A stretch of DNA of 36,513 nucleotides from a virus. The stretch covers positions 1 to 36,513 of IMG/VR virus record IMGVR_UViG_3300026097_000007; one strand, given 5' to 3'. Each line of letters starts with the position of its first letter. The first letter of the stretch is position 1. The notes under the pieces were generated by a model that was not told the origin of the DNA, made no database searches, and saw only the letters and a list, made by a program, of their open reading frames with translations. Made by a program: the position numbers and the translations under genes. Positions 537 to 36,513 of the stretch are shown here, piece by piece.

Positions 537-745
537 GGTTAAAGAAATAACCATTGACCCCTCTGGCCCGGAGGATGGGTTGACCCACTAGATAGGGATA
601 CCCTGTAAACAGAGCTAAAGTGGAAACCTCATAGGATATTAAACTTTAGATTAAAAGTCCGAGACTACAAGGAAGTAGTTACATGACTATAAACTGAAAG
701 GTATGACTAGCCTTTAGATATATAAAATAGTGCTCTGATAAAGGT
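537..745 (+). ncRNA. Candidate structured non-coding RNA (group-I-intron-like helices)
   Basis: No gene is seen between 488 and 865. By eye this part holds many short complementary arms: GGTTA/TAACC (537-541, 548-552), TGGG-TTGA-CCCA near 576-587, AGGG-ATA-CCCT near 594-603, CTCTG 561-565 with CAGAG 610-614, CTAAAGT 615-621 with ACTTTAG 643-649, GAGACTA 661-667 with TAGT(G)CTC 728-735, and CTGA/TCAG near 734-748. Their order can be drawn as P4, P6, P7 and P9 of a group I intron. CC(A)TTG 551-556 with CAAGG 668-672 would be P3, and GAGACTACAAGG resembles the conserved R element. Part of the GGTTA/TAACC hairpin competes with that P3. The bulge in the putative P7 is on the less usual strand, and no coding exons are interrupted, so intron identity is only a hypothesis. 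Confidence 0.35.
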
Positions 746-2645: not shown

Positions 2646-3989
2646 TTGTTTGACGTAGGTCAAAAACTAAATTTTAATCTACACACCCGCCAGTTCGAGG
2701 TCTTTAACGACCCCGCCCGGTTTAAGGTTGTTGCCGCCGGGCGTAGATTTGGTAAGTCCTACCTAGCTAGGATAATGCTTCTGATTGAAGCAATGAAAGA
2801 AAAGAACGAAGAAGGGTACGACCTAAAAAACAGAGCAGTGTACTACATTGCTCCTACGTTTGAGCAGGCAAAACGTATTATGTGGGGCGAGCTTAAAGAG
2901 ATGGGCCGCCCTGTCATAGAATCAACGCTAGAAAACCAAGGTATTATCAAACTCGTCAATGGGCGAGAGATTCACCTTAAAGGCGCAGACAGACCAGACA
3001 CACTTAGAGGCGTAGGCCTCTCATACGTTGTGATGGACGAGTATGCGTTTATGAAACCAGAGGTCTGGGAGTACATTGTACGCCCGACACTAGCTGACTG
3101 TAGAGGTGGTGCCCTTTTTATAGGTACCCCAGAAGGTAAAAACCACTTTTTTGAGCTCTACGAAGACGTCAGAAAGCACAAAAAACAGTGCGAAAAAGAA
3201 GATAAACAGCCAGAATGGTCTTGTTTTACGTTTTCATCAGCAGAAAACACTTTCATTCCCATTGCTGACGAGATTCAGCGGTCAATTGACCAAGGCACGC
3301 CAGCCGAAGTAGTACGACAAGAGTATTTCGCGTCATTTCAGGCTTCTGGCGGCAGGATTTTTAAGGAAGATAATCTTAAATATCTTGATGAGGAGCCAAA
3401 AGAAGGTGTCTACTACATCGCAGTTGACCCAGCAGGGTACGAAGAAGTCTCTAAAAAAGGTGCGAGGGAAGACAGGCTGGACGAAATGGCTATTGCCATC
3501 GTCAAAGTCGGTTCTTTCGGATGGTACGTTGCTGAAATTCGCACTGGCCGCTGGAATGTTAGGGAAGCATCCATACAAATTCTAAAAGCAGCCAAAGATT
3601 ATCAGGCATTGACAGTAGGCATCGAACGCGGTGCACTTAAAAACGCTGTCATGCCCTACTTGACAGATCAAATGCGCCGTTTAGGCGTTTTTCCGCACGT
3701 TGTAGACGTTACTCACGGCGGTAAAAAGAAAACAGAACGAATTGCTTGGGCATTACAAGGACGCATGGAGCACGGAAGATTGTTTCTTCCAGAAGATACT
3801 AGCGATTGTGAAGATCGCAGGTGGACAAAGAAGTTTATTAACCAACTATTAGACTTTCCTAACCCACTTACCCATGACGACATGCTAGATGCCTTAGCTT
3901 ATATAGACCAGATTGCCACTACATCTTACTTTAACGAAGATGACTTCGAAGATGAGTGGGAACCTATGGACGCAATTGCAGGATACTAA
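2646..3989 (+). CDS. terL: Terminase large subunit (DNA packaging ATPase-nuclease)
   Basis: Motor of head filling: it hydrolyses ATP to pump DNA through the portal and cuts the concatemer. Visible motifs are the Walker A variant AGRRFGKS (31-38), Walker B VVMDE (D131, E132), the coupling motif IGTPEG (159-164), and the RNase H-like nuclease acidic residues in AVDPAG (D261), IERG (E327) and THDDMLDA (D411, D412). The length of 447 is normal for the family. The start is a TTG: an in-frame TAA lies two codons upstream, the first internal ATG would remove Walker A, and GAGG (2635-2638) sits correctly. The portal gene follows after one base. Confidence 0.95.
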   Translation: MFDVGQKLNFNLHTRQFEVFNDPARFKVVAAGRRFGKSYLARIMLLIEAMKEKNEEGYDLKNRAVYYIAPTFEQAKRIMWGELKEMGRPVIESTLENQGIIKLVNGREIHLKGADRPDTLRGVGLSYVVMDEYAFMKPEVWEYIVRPTLADCRGGALFIGTPEGKNHFFELYEDVRKHKKQCEKEDKQPEWSCFTFSSAENTFIPIADEIQRSIDQGTPAEVVRQEYFASFQASGGRIFKEDNLKYLDEEPKEGVYYIAVDPAGYEEVSKKGAREDRLDEMAIAIVKVGSFGWYVAEIRTGRWNVREASIQILKAAKDYQALTVGIERGALKNAVMPYLTDQMRRLGVFPHVVDVTHGGKKKTERIAWALQGRMEHGRLFLPEDTSDCEDRRWTKKFINQLLDFPNPLTHDDMLDALAYIDQIATTSYFNEDDFEDEWEPMDAIAGY

Positions 3990-3990
3990 T

Positions 3991-16551: not shown

Positions 16552-19077
16552 ATGCCTATCTTTAGAGGATCACAGAACGCTACTATCTCTACTGGTGATA
16601 TTGTAGCTACACAAGCTGATATAGCTGCTGCTGTCACATTAGCGGAACAAGCCCAAGCTGCTGCTGAGGCTGCACAGGCTGCTGCTGAGACTAGTCTAGA
16701 TGACTTTGATGATAGGTACCTCGGTGCTAAGTCTTCTAACCCTACAGTAGACAACGATGGCGATGCTCTTATTGATGGTGCTTTGTACTACAACACCACA
16801 GAAGATGTGATTCGTGTCTATGATCTATCTTCTGATACATGGTCTGATATAAAGCCATCTGCTACAGAGCAGGCAAATATCAATGCTGTTGCCCCTATCG
16901 CATCCCAAGTAGAGACAGTAAGTGATAACATTTCTGATGTAACTACTGTTGCTGGAGTGTCAACTGACGTATCAACAGTTGCCGGTGTTTCTACGGATGT
17001 TACATCAGTCGCTGCTATTGGCACAGATGTTACAGCGGTGTCAGGAATTACAGCAGATGTTACATCGGTAGCTGCCGTAGACACAGATGTTTCTGCTGTT
17101 GCAGGTATTACATCTGATGTGACTACTGTGGCTGCAAACATTGTTGATATACAGAACGCAGATCAGAACGCACAAGATGCAGAAGCAGCAAAGATTGCAG
17201 CAGAATCGGCCTTTGATAGTTTTGATGATCGTTATCTAGGAGCTAAATCATCAGAGCCAACTGTTGATAATGACGGTGATGCACTGCTTACCGGAGCACT
17301 CTACTATGACACGACTTTAAGTCTTTTAAGAGTGTACACAGGATCAGTTTGGGCGAGTATTGACTATGACCCAACCAACGTCGCTATCACTGGCGGGAAC
17401 ATTGATGGTACAGCTATTGGCGAAACTACTCCGTCTACTGGTGACTTCACGACTGTCAATGCAGATGCGGTTGTTGTGCCGGGTGAGCTACTCATGCCGG
17501 TCAATGGAGAGATTCTGTGGCCTGTTGATCTAACTGTGCCTGATAACTTTTTTGACACCAGCCTGCGTCTTTTTACTGCCCCTAATGAGCGAGCTGTAAT
17601 TGCTGCTACTCCAGCAGGTCTTTTTACTAATGGAAAGGACGGTGCTTGGCTTGAGCCGTCTCCGACGACTACCTACACCGATACCAGCGGCACTACTGCT
17701 GCTACTGTTGGAGATGCAGTTGCTCGTATTGATGATCTGTCCGGCAATGACAACCACGCCACTCAGGCAACCTCTGCTGCTCGACCGCTTCTGGCTGCAA
17801 CGCCTGATCGAGTAACCTTCGATCTGGTAGACGATAACTTCTCAATGGACTTTACTGGGTCTGGTGGTTTTACCGCTACGCTATTACAGGGTTCGGATGA
17901 GGGTATTGTTCACGCTAAGGTATCTGTCCCTGATGGTGCATACTCAATCACTCAGGATGAGTCGTATTTCCCCAGCGATAACATTACAGGACTGTTCCTT
18001 GTAGAAGGTGATATTGCAGCCAACGCAGTGCCAAGCGTAAAGAACTACCTTGTTGGCAAGGGCGCAGGTGCTGACTTTGCTGGTGTGACGAGTATGGAGA
18101 GTTGGTTCAAAGAAAGAGACGATTTAATTGAGTTGTATGCTAATGACTGGGACGTATCATCTGTCACTGATTTTAGAAATTTTGCAGAAAGAGCCGATAT
18201 TACTGTTTTAAATGTATCCAACTGGGACACATCATCTGTTATTACTTTTCTTCAGTTTGTAGATAACTGCTCTAGCCTCACAACACTAGATGTTAGTAAT
18301 TGGGACACGTCTTCTGTTACTAGTTTTGATAGGTTTGCACAAAGATGCAGCAGTCTCACTACACTAGATGTCTCTAACTGGGACACGTCATCTGTTACTG
18401 ATTTTAATTCTTTTGCACGCAACTGTTCTAGTCTAACAGCACTAGGTGTTAGTAATTGGGACACGTCTTCTGTTACGAGTTTTAGAAGGTTTGCAGCCGG
18501 CTGCGGTAACCTCACAACTTTAGATGTCTCCAACTGGGATACTTCTTCTGTTACGAGTTTTAGAGATTTTGCAATTAGCTGCGGTAACCTCACAACACTA
18601 GATGTTAGTAATTGGGATACTTCTTCTGTTACTAATTTTTCTAATTTTGCACGTAGTACAGATATAAGTGTTTTAGATGTCTCTAATTGGGATACATTTT
18701 CTGTTACTAATTTTAGTGATTTTGTACGAAACTGCTCAAGCCTCACAGCTTTAGATGTATCTAACTGGGATACTTCTTCTGTTACTAATTTTAGTAGATT
18801 TACACTAGACGCTTCCAGTCTCACTACCGTCACAGTAACAGGCGGGACAGGCAATCCTTTTGCGGATAGCCCTTGTACTAATTACGAAGAGGCTTTTACC
18901 AACACCAATCTAACCCAGCAGTCGATTGATGACATTCTTGTTGCAATTGAAGCGGCAAACACATCTAACGGTACCTTTGACCAGTCAGGTGGAAATGCAC
19001 CATCAGCCACGGGTGAGGCAGCGATTGATGATCTTAGAAGCAGAGGCTGGACAGTCACCGTCGAAGGAGGATATTAA
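16552..19077 (+). CDS. Long tail fibre with coiled-coil stem and BspA-like repeats
   Basis: An 841-residue receptor-binding fibre candidate. Order: an Ala-rich helical start (residues 18-47); a DRYLGAKSS...DNDGDAL..GALYYNT module (about 54-98); a TDV/V-rich stretch in which SVAAIGTDVTAVSG-like units repeat (about 128-200); a second copy of the DRYLG module (about 226-268); a GNIDGT..G..TPSTGDFTTV link; then, after a unique region, nine 24-26 residue LDVSNWDTSSVT.F..FA..CSSL repeats (about 528-759) of the BspA/DUF285 type; then a unique C-terminus. The repeated domain probably forms the surface-binding tip. GAGGAATAG is the ribosome binding site. Confidence 0.85.
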   Translation: MPIFRGSQNATISTGDIVATQADIAAAVTLAEQAQAAAEAAQAAAETSLDDFDDRYLGAKSSNPTVDNDGDALIDGALYYNTTEDVIRVYDLSSDTWSDIKPSATEQANINAVAPIASQVETVSDNISDVTTVAGVSTDVSTVAGVSTDVTSVAAIGTDVTAVSGITADVTSVAAVDTDVSAVAGITSDVTTVAANIVDIQNADQNAQDAEAAKIAAESAFDSFDDRYLGAKSSEPTVDNDGDALLTGALYYDTTLSLLRVYTGSVWASIDYDPTNVAITGGNIDGTAIGETTPSTGDFTTVNADAVVVPGELLMPVNGEILWPVDLTVPDNFFDTSLRLFTAPNERAVIAATPAGLFTNGKDGAWLEPSPTTTYTDTSGTTAATVGDAVARIDDLSGNDNHATQATSAARPLLAATPDRVTFDLVDDNFSMDFTGSGGFTATLLQGSDEGIVHAKVSVPDGAYSITQDESYFPSDNITGLFLVEGDIAANAVPSVKNYLVGKGAGADFAGVTSMESWFKERDDLIELYANDWDVSSVTDFRNFAERADITVLNVSNWDTSSVITFLQFVDNCSSLTTLDVSNWDTSSVTSFDRFAQRCSSLTTLDVSNWDTSSVTDFNSFARNCSSLTALGVSNWDTSSVTSFRRFAAGCGNLTTLDVSNWDTSSVTSFRDFAISCGNLTTLDVSNWDTSSVTNFSNFARSTDISVLDVSNWDTFSVTNFSDFVRNCSSLTALDVSNWDTSSVTNFSRFTLDASSLTTVTVTGGTGNPFADSPCTNYEEAFTNTNLTQQSIDDILVAIEAANTSNGTFDQSGGNAPSATGEAAIDDLRSRGWTVTVEGGY
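18134..18828 (+). repeat. Nine tandem 72-78 bp units in the tail fibre gene
   Basis: Each full unit is 78 bp and encodes a 26-residue LDVSNWDTSSVT block; the first and seventh units are shorter (24 and 25 residues). The WDTSSVT core is nearly constant, while the two residues before each Phe and the three after (DRFAQR, NSFARN, RRFAAG, RDFAIS, SNFARS, SDFVRN) vary. DNA of neighbouring units is very alike, so unit gain, loss and gene conversion are likely. Confidence 0.9.
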
Positions 19078-24618: not shown

Positions 24619-25403
24619 AGATACTTCTCCTTCAAGTAGTTAAGACTAAGAGGCATACCGCAGTAGAATCCGTTGCTAACCTCGTTCTTCATCATCACGC
24701 CATCAAACCTAGCGTTGCCCTGTGGCCCCATGTAGTCCTCATCGTGCTCGTAGCATGTGCCCCAGACTAATCCAATCTTAGGTCTGCCTAGTGCATCGTG
24801 GATCATACCGTGCTGGTAAATCTGCTGGTGCCCTTGGCTAAAGCTCTGTCCTACCTTCTGTAATCGGTTCTCAATGTTACCTGACAATGAGTTCTTGGTT
24901 AGAGACAATGGGTTTACAAAGTAGTGAGAGTATAAGATACCATCAATCTCTACTATGTCCAGAAAGCCGTGTTGTTCCCAACCGTACTCCTTTAGCTTTA
25001 GGTCATGGTACCCTACCGTTCCCTCTAGCCGTGGGTCTTTGTGTACAGCCCGTGTAATCCTATTCTCATGGTTACCTAAGCAAAACACTAACCGAGGATT
25101 GTACCGCTTCTTTTTGTTCAGCACACTGCGCTTCTGGTACTTCTTCAGCGGACCTAGTAGCTGATCCATCCCATCAATACCCGCCTGAATGTCCTCAGCG
25201 TAGGTCTTGTCATGGAAGTAAGCAGAGCTTCTCTCCTCGTAGGATGACAGACTACCCATGTCCCAGTGGTCACCGATATGGACAACCACGTCAGGCTTCA
25301 TGTCTACAATTAAGTTACCGATTGCACGAAGATAGTTCTTGTCAGTCTCCGGCTTGCAATGGATATCTGGTATAAACAAATGTTTTTTAGTCGATCCAGT
25401 CAT
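24615..25403 (-). CDS. Calcineurin-like metallophosphoesterase
   Basis: A 262-residue dinuclear metal phosphoesterase. Ligand motifs in order are FIPDIHCK (D13, H15), HIGDHWD, LGNHENR and the later HYFVNP and GHQQ. These motifs match DxH, GDxxD, GNHE and GH. The substrate may be a nucleotide, RNA or protein phosphate; the sequence does not decide. A similar gene occurs with RNR and ThyX in roseophage SIO1-like genomes. Its start lies 17 bases inside the HNH gene end, suggesting that the HNH gene was inserted just upstream. Confidence 0.85.
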   Translation of the reverse strand: MTGSTKKHLFIPDIHCKPETDKNYLRAIGNLIVDMKPDVVVHIGDHWDMGSLSSYEERSSAYFHDKTYAEDIQAGIDGMDQLLGPLKKYQKRSVLNKKKRYNPRLVFCLGNHENRITRAVHKDPRLEGTVGYHDLKLKEYGWEQHGFLDIVEIDGILYSHYFVNPLSLTKNSLSGNIENRLQKVGQSFSQGHQQIYQHGMIHDALGRPKIGLVWGTCYEHDEDYMGPQGNARFDGVMMKNEVSNGFYCGMPLSLNYLKEKYL

Positions 25404-25881
25404 AATTCCAACGCTCTTTCCTAATTATTGATTGTATTGTTCTAACAGATACACCATATTCTTTAGATAACATTTTATATGTGTACTGCCTAGGCAAATA
25501 TTTTTGTCTTATTTCTTTTACATTTTCTTTTGTCAGTAAACAGTTTCCATGCTTTTCTCCTTGTGCATTGGGCCTAGGCTTGGTTGCCCTCTTTCTATCT
25601 TTTTTGTCTCTCATGTTATCTTGGTGAGTTCCTAAATAAAGATGTTCAGGATTAACACAACAAGCAACATCGCATTTGTGAAGTACATACATGTCTTTTG
25701 GGTCTTCTACATGCACCATATAAGACAGTCTATGGGCAGAAACGGTTTTACCTTCTATCTTGACTCTTCCATAACCGCCACGATTTAAGGACTTGTCCCA
25801 TATCCAGCAGCCTGTCTCAGTAACTGGTGTGGAATACCTTTCAATCGTATCAATAAATTTTTCTTTATTCAACCCAATCAC
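25387..25881 (-). CDS. HNH homing endonuclease with C-terminal HTH
   Basis: A 164-residue HNH endonuclease of the phage NUMOD/HNH_3 kind: GCWIWDKSLNRGGYGRVKIE (about 24-43), then AHRLSY and VLHKCDVACCVNPEHLYLGT (about 66-85) and THQDNMRDK, which together carry the His-Asn-His and Cys zinc residues. The C-terminal YKMLSKEYGVSVRTIQSIIR is a helix-turn-helix for DNA recognition. It is clearly AT-richer than its neighbours and sits with 17-base overlaps on both sides between endonuclease I and the phosphoesterase. A recently arrived free-standing homing gene is likely. Confidence 0.88.
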   Translation of the reverse strand: MIGLNKEKFIDTIERYSTPVTETGCWIWDKSLNRGGYGRVKIEGKTVSAHRLSYMVHVEDPKDMYVLHKCDVACCVNPEHLYLGTHQDNMRDKKDRKRATKPRPNAQGEKHGNCLLTKENVKEIRQKYLPRQYTYKMLSKEYGVSVRTIQSIIRKERWNYDWID

Positions 25882-27460: not shown

Positions 27461-27537
<77 letters not shown>

Positions 27538-36022: not shown

Positions 36023-36289
36023 TCAAATGCAAATAAGAATCACTCGCAAAGGTACTCTGTACAGGCATGGGGTACCCCCCTCATATGGTTTGGGTCCCAT
36101 AGTGGGTATATACACACACAGCTACAAGTGAGGCAAAGTATTACAGGGCCTAAAATTAGGAGAAGAAGAATATTATGTTAAATATAAATAATTGGGGAAC
36201 TATAGCAAGCTCAGGTCGCATGTAGACGACCTTCGCAGGGTGATTGAACGGGGTAAATATTTGATTTAACTGTATAATTAAAATAATAC

Positions 36290-36354: not shown

Positions 36355-36513
36355 ATGCCTTTACAGTCTACTTGGGAAGCGGAGATCCCTAGCATTATTG
36401 ATATGATGGAGCAAGGAATCTGTTTAGATGCTATTGGAGCTAGTTATGGAGTATCTAAGCAAAGGATATATCAGGTACTGACAAAGTACGGTATTGATAC
36501 ACCTGCAAGAAAA
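36355..36513 (+). CDS. HTH-HNH endonuclease, 5' part
   Basis: Starts MPLQSTWEAEIPSIIDMMEQ at an ATG with AAGGAG seven bases upstream and runs off the window end; the same frame continues from base 2. It contains the N-terminal helix-turn-helix (SYGVSKQRIYQVLTKYGI). Taking this start adds 16 residues to what the left end alone would show. See the entry at 2-487 for the nuclease part. Confidence 0.8.
   Translation, partial: MPLQSTWEAEIPSIIDMMEQGICLDAIGASYGVSKQRIYQVLTKYGIDTPARK
36387..36513. repeat. Terminal exact repeat, right copy (contig closure)
   Basis: Identical to bases 1-127; see that entry. The HNH gene continues seamlessly when the copies are merged, so the contig is complete. Confidence 0.9.

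Follow-up and report, generated by a model that had tools for sequence, protein, structure and literature searches.

A conserved folded RNA ahead of the late genes in uncultured phage lineages

The late-operon head

The window (the whole stretch of DNA analyzed, 36,513 bases of an IMG/VR virus record) carries a 127-bp terminal repeat, with bases 1 to 127 equal to 36387 to 36513. Given this repeat, the record presumably represents a 36,386-base circle. Early and replication genes (lysozyme, ThyX, ribonucleotide reductase, a split DNA polymerase, a primase-helicase, and others) run leftward. The late genes run rightward in an operon of ∼19 kb that includes the gene for a 131-aa protein, followed by TerL, portal, capsid, and virion genes. 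The 131-aa protein, which shows a weak match to DUF5681, is taken to be the terminase small subunit. A PHROGs scan of 34 proteins recognized no RNA polymerase, and a single-subunit enzyme is not expected among the early ORFs because none is long enough (628 aa at most). Since no phage enzyme was recognized, host RNA polymerase would be the enzyme that reads the late operon. Among the late genes, window positions 16552 to 19077 (+) encode an 841-aa protein with many near-identical repeats (LDVSNWDTSSVTNF) that appears BspA-like by eye. The sole tRNA in the window lies at 27461 to 27537.

The following features lie just ahead of the late genes:

36189 to 36268, + strand: element U, a conserved non-coding sequence that precedes the HNH gene (nhmmer E 1e-16)
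36355 to 36386, then 1 to 487, + strand: HNH gene (172 aa), crossing the circular junction (PHROG endonuclease, E 3e-24)
498 to 526, + strand: sigma-70-like promoter, TTGACA-17-GATAAT with TG before the second hexamer (11 of 12 consensus bases), directly upstream of RNA-A
556 to 844, + strand: RNA-A, the whole conserved RNA from outer helix to conserved 3′ tail (nhmmer profile A3 and covariation)

RNA-A is a conserved folded RNA of ∼290 bases. At least four phage lineages carry it ahead of their late genes; they are represented by the window and by three more copies in IMG/VR phage contigs (L004, L327/L328, and L412). RNA-A precedes the late operon in all four lineages. A strong sigma-70-like promoter was found directly upstream in three of them (11/12 in the window, 10/12 in L412, and by eye in L004), with only a weak site (9/12) upstream of RNA-A in L328. 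The gene that comes first after RNA-A varies: the window has a 97-aa ORF there and L004 a 70-aa ORF, and L328 and L412 both have the terminase-small-subunit-like gene. In every lineage, the RNA ends ∼20 to 35 nt before the first start codon (22 bases in L327/L328), and the stretch between the 3′ tail and that codon is not conserved. No intrinsic terminator-like site was seen behind RNA-A on that strand in the window. Across the late operon, 20 such sites were found on both strands, against 15.6 ± 4.6 expected, which is no clear excess.

RNA-A and its fold

The relatives were retrieved by different routes. L004 was found through an HNH protein search, which also gave L003; L327/L328 was found through a TerL protein search; and L412, whose TerL is 59% identical, was found with a gapped pattern from the first two lineages. 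Identity to the RNA-A of the window is 95 to 96.2% in L004, 72% in L412, and 60% in L327/L328. With a profile (A3) built from these same four copies, nhmmer gave E values of 3e-89 for the window, 4e-92 for L004, 6e-90 for L412, and 2e-81 for L327/L328. Between the window and L004, RNA-A is 96.2% identical, compared with DNA identities of 73% for both HNH and the terminase-small-subunit-like gene and 70% for a 186-aa gene; TerL is 85% identical.

The full-length search used the nhmmer profile rather than a calibrated covariance model, and the four-lineage profile retrieved no further copy from the fetched loci (∼3.1 Mb) and a single copy from the window. The IMG/VR searches relied on patterns and proteins and possibly missed further members; every relative retrieved is an uncultured contig. 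Exact-pattern scans with CCGAGACTACAAGG, GTAAACAGAGCTAAAG, and CGGGNNAGYTGTATCTAAA returned, beyond the known copies, only coding or chance matches, and a 16-base pattern scan of bacterial genomes returned chance matches only. No relative turned up in the phage and plasmid collections. A model of the 3′ domain (R1) had zero matches in 289 genomes of one bacterial class, a search too small to carry much weight. A likeness of the AU-rich hairpin to sequences in L361, L367, L368, L370, and L377 was set aside as a low-complexity palindrome.

Rfam 15 contains no match to RNA-A. In the window, only the tRNA (27464 to 27537) reaches its gathering score, and nothing relevant appears over positions 1 to 1200 at E 10. 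Single-sequence folding energy is mildly low (z of −1.68 for 551 to 745 and −2.30 for 525 to 870); because it is only mildly unusual, a single sequence could not settle the structure.

Comparison among the lineages gave a clearer result. On the four-sequence MAFFT alignment (A3), the fold comprises 56 pairs, with 18 changed on both sides and 96.4% of cells paired; the structure was derived from the same sequences, which favors the latter figure and affects the compensatory counts less. Shuffles of A3 gave 7.6 ± 1.7 pairs changed on both sides, with 0 of 500 reaching 18, and slid controls gave 0 to 4. Likewise, the covariation score was 0.381, against 0.166 ± 0.027 in shuffles (0/500 as high) and 0.03 to 0.10 in slid versions. 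The sample is four lineages, two of them close, and some helices rest on few changes. Judged from these alignments and searches, RNA-A looks like a new RNA family; it adds a covariation-supported family without an Rfam 15 match, at a regulatory position in an uncultured phage group.

A long-range outer helix encloses two hairpins and a multibranch domain and is followed by a long AU-rich hairpin; the loop of the first hairpin (H1) forms a pseudoknot with the conserved 3′ tail. The elements, all on the + strand of the window, are as follows:

537 to 552, + strand: P0, a 5′ hairpin (GGTTA/TAACC) that differs in sequence in all four lineages and is kept shortly before the outer helix
556 to 559, + strand: outer helix, 5′ strand (GACC), pairing with GGTC at 743 to 746; three of its four pairs are changed on both sides
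560 to 574, + strand: H1 hairpin (CCTC/GAGG), with an invariant stem and a seven-base loop containing RCCCG (566 to 570), which pairs with 826 to 830
577 to 603, + strand: H2, a two-part hairpin (outer GGG/CCC, inner CCC/GGG)
610 to 615, + strand: P1, 5′ strand (CAGAGC), which with GCTCTG closes the multibranch domain (hairpins B and C)
656 to 688, + strand: hairpin B, outer AGTC/GACT (from covariation) and inner GACTAC/GTAGTT (from single-sequence folds)
697 to 715, + strand: hairpin C (AAAGG/CCTTT), with 100% of cells paired over three counted pairs
732 to 737, + strand: P1, 3′ strand (GCTCTG), from covariation
743 to 746, + strand: outer helix, 3′ strand (GGTC), from covariation
756 to 819, + strand: L, the long AU-rich hairpin, with 23 pairs, 98.9% of cells paired, and 6 pairs changed on both sides
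826 to 844, + strand: conserved 3′ tail, CGGGC AAGTTGTATCTAAA, in which CGGGY pairs with the H1 loop (RCCCG)

The most divergent variants keep these helices in other letters. In L328, the outer helix is AAAC/GTTT, the outer stem of H2 is CCC/GGG, P1 is CAGGAT/ATCCTG, hairpin B has an outer AGAC/GTCT and an inner CAGTAA/TTACTG, and hairpin C is AGGT/ACCT. The L412 copy has CTACCT/AGGTAG as the outer stem of H2 and GGT/ACC in hairpin C. In the outer H2 helix, where 81% of cells are paired, all four pairs are changed on both sides; in P1, at 100% paired, this applies to three pairs. The pseudoknot itself shows a compensatory change, from G-C in the window and L004 to A-U in L328 and L412. For P0, 67, 12, 74, and 4 of 1,000 shuffles folded equally well or better in the four lineages. 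Several highly invariant stretches are apparently unpaired, namely, GAAACCTCA, CTATAAA, CTGATAAAG, and the 3′ tail.

Intron-like arms, HNH genes, and the same slot in relatives

The initial annotation, made from this sequence by itself, had described positions 537 to 745 as a structured non-coding stretch that could be drawn as a group I-like core. Its description of a structured stretch was borne out by the compensatory changes in homologs, with different helices and a larger extent (∼537 to 844). The complementary arms that it listed are all present (CTCTG at 561 to 565 with CAGAG at 610 to 614, CTAAAGT at 615 to 621 with ACTTTAG at 643 to 649, CC(A)TTG at 551 to 556 with CAAGG at 668 to 672, and GAGACTA at 661 to 667 with TAGT(G)CTC at 728 to 735). 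They can be drawn in P3-P4-P6-P7 order beside an R-like string, GAGACTACAAGG. This likeness to group I introns (RF00028), drawn from the window sequence, is superficial, and GAGACTACAAGG is not conserved in L328 or L412. On A3, the group I pairing has 72.9% of cells paired and 4 pairs changed on both sides, compared with 4.2 in shuffles, in contrast to the 18 of the fold described above. P3 (55% of cells paired) is broken in the three other lineages, and neither P3 nor P7 (75%) is conserved as a core in homologs. P6 is 68% paired; P4 reaches 95%, but its 3′ strand doubles as the 5′ strand of P1, which is better supported. The hairpin that had been seen as competing with P3 (GGTTA at 537 to 541 with TAACC at 548 to 552) is present and returns in every lineage as P0, with letters that differ each time.

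RF00028 gave no match at E 10 in L004, L328, or the window (including positions 1 to 1200), and none at E 0.5 in the loci of eight relatives. As had also been remarked at the outset, no split protein gene flanks the stretch: the ORFs on neither side are split, no interrupted gene with splice sites or pair of exons is visible on either side, and in L328 and L412 an intact ORF directly follows RNA-A. On the pairing test in four lineages, the lack of an RF00028 match, and the lack of an interrupted gene, we rejected a group I core and give next to no credence to a degenerate or unusual intron of this type. The other suggestion made at the outset, a new phage RNA, gained support from the three further lineages that share the fold with many compensatory changes.

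A sub-threshold Intron_gpI match was recorded elsewhere, at L412 4689 to 4864 (−), in the late region and far from RNA-A (20.2 bits, E 3.7e-5 for that record). It is possibly a true group I intron or a chance match; control genomes also match weakly.

The RNA had further been proposed to be one found with HNH genes. RNA-A occurs without HNH in L327/L328 and L412, whereas L003 has a 79%-identical HNH without RNA-A, its promoter being followed by the next gene; L319 carries another HNH gene and no copy of RNA-A. Because RNA-A and HNH each occur without the other, an HNH-linked RNA was rejected, as was an HNH-associated RNA of the HEARO type, for which there was also no Rfam match. The HNH gene is an independent neighbor and no part of RNA-A. 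Its presence here is uninformative about introns, which removes a false lead. A second, unrelated HNH endonuclease gene lies among the early genes at window positions 25387 to 25881 (−) (PHROG 59).

In four relatives, the slot of RNA-A is filled by RNA-B, a structured RNA with TAATCTAGAGCAACRCTAGAGRCACCGYGTTGCGA... and a covarying long-range helix (TTAGTGT/ACACTAA, AGGGTGT/ACACCCT). RNA-B and element U were located in relatives as follows:

L325, ∼3743 to 3990: RNA-B
L206, 2917 to 3130: RNA-B
L319, 852 to 1079: RNA-B
L202, 1 to 237: RNA-B
L004, 74 to 152: element U
L206, 2747 to 2820: element U
L319, 737 to 814: element U
L322, 1611 to 1685: element U
L325, 3593 to 3660: element U
L328, 3533 to 3613: element U
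L412, 11520 to 11588, − strand: element U

RNA-B resembles RNA-A in being structured and in standing at the same operon head behind the same promoter type (TTGACA/TATAAT in the three contigs that span that stretch). It differs in that sequence and fold are unrelated, and neither profile finds the other RNA; RNA-B has no Rfam match either. Thus, the late-operon slot is occupied by different structured RNAs in close relatives. L003 still has the 3′ flanking sequence of RNA-B ahead of its HNH gene. Thus, HNH genes lie beside either RNA, and the RNAs also occur in the absence of HNH. Element U (GGGGAACTA...GCTC(stem)TCGC) lies between the divergent operons in the window and in the relatives whose contigs reach there (L004, L206, L319, L321, L322, L325, L327/L328, and L412). 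Its six-pair stem is 100% paired in 8 sequences, with 3 pairs changed on both sides.

Possible roles of RNA-A

We tentatively favor RNA-A as a late-transcript leader that acts in cis on its operon, most likely through a put-like modification of host RNA polymerase. This reading is plausible while falling short of probable, and the put-like step within it is a guess by analogy. HK022 put RNA achieves antitermination via the β′ zinc-binding domain of RNA polymerase. RNA-A would be transcribed as the 5′ leader of the rightward late mRNA and would act on the whole operon rather than on a single gene; the folded leader would bind host RNA polymerase, and the bound enzyme would express the ∼19-kb late operon processively, as with HK022 put RNA. 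Action on the whole operon is suggested because the first downstream gene differs between lineages. A leader acting in cis is further suggested because no intrinsic terminator was seen behind RNA-A in the window and because in relatives this position, after a promoter of like type, is taken by the unrelated RNA-B. Against the leader reading, only a weak promoter site directly precedes RNA-A in L328. With terminator-like sites in no clear excess across the operon, a need for antitermination does not follow.

Like HK022 putL and putR, RNA-A is a structured phage leader just downstream of a promoter, ahead of an operon that host RNA polymerase would read (PMC9378689); a promoter followed by a long operon is what we found, with a weak promoter in L328. 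In contrast, put RNA is ∼70 nt with two stem-loops (PMC9378689) and serves early genes, whereas RNA-A heads late genes, is ∼290 nt long, and combines a multibranch domain with a long-range pseudoknot. This far larger size and the pseudoknot argue against a put-like activity, which is only proposed here.

Two other readings are serious rivals to a put-like leader. RNA-A may be processed, that is, cut from the late transcript and acting in trans as a free RNA or ribonucleoprotein; we regard this as a real possibility, though on the unlikely side. The elaborate fold, the pseudoknot that joins the 5′ part to the 3′ end, and the invariant, apparently unpaired letters in loops and the 3′ tail would all suit such an RNA. 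There is precedence in GOLLD and ROOL, large, elaborately folded phage or prophage RNAs of unknown function (PMC12286853). These are larger than RNA-A (659 nt for ROOL env-120 and >800 nt for many GOLLD RNAs), have Rfam models, and often lie near tRNA islands, whereas RNA-A matches neither the GOLLD, ROOL, and OLE models nor any other Rfam family and stands constantly at the late-operon head, away from tRNA genes. The occupation of its slot by another RNA in relatives also argues against a role in trans. A leader that controls the stability or translation of the first part of the late mRNA, as a 5′ stabilizer, a nuclease barrier, or a means of autoregulation by a late protein, would fit the short distance to the first start codon in all four lineages and the hairpin near the predicted transcript start in each lineage. 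We consider it unlikely, as the first gene varies between lineages, which makes control of one gene improbable, and the stretch leading to the start codon is not conserved. Very unlikely is a DNA-level element (a replication origin or a packaging or recombination site) with inverted repeats that look like RNA stems. Its position near the divergent-transcription boundary and beside the terminase genes would suit such an element, but the fold contains G-U pairs and interleaved, pseudoknotted pairing with compensatory change, and the promoter points into RNA-A.

The cis-acting leader also admits a bolder form, which we hold to be doubtful: a new family of pseudoknotted leaders would by itself reprogram host RNA polymerase for late transcription, with RNA-A and RNA-B interchangeable as at least two unrelated solutions for one slot, in a phage group without its own RNA polymerase. 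If RNA-A acts on host RNA polymerase, it would constitute a protein-free late-gene switch. To our knowledge, the precedent for a protein-free RNA switch is put RNA, in early transcription.

Two minor observations concern the region around element U. In the window (36060 to 36120) and its relatives, a conserved stretch (...TGGGTCCCAT...GTATATACACACACA...), which precedes element U by ∼100 nt in the relatives examined, is perhaps made up of hairpins or regulatory DNA. In L322 (1690 to 2050) and L321 (730 to 1090), element U is present and the profiles find neither RNA-A nor RNA-B; the ∼360-nt gap up to the terminase-small-subunit-like gene is a possible site of a third leader RNA.
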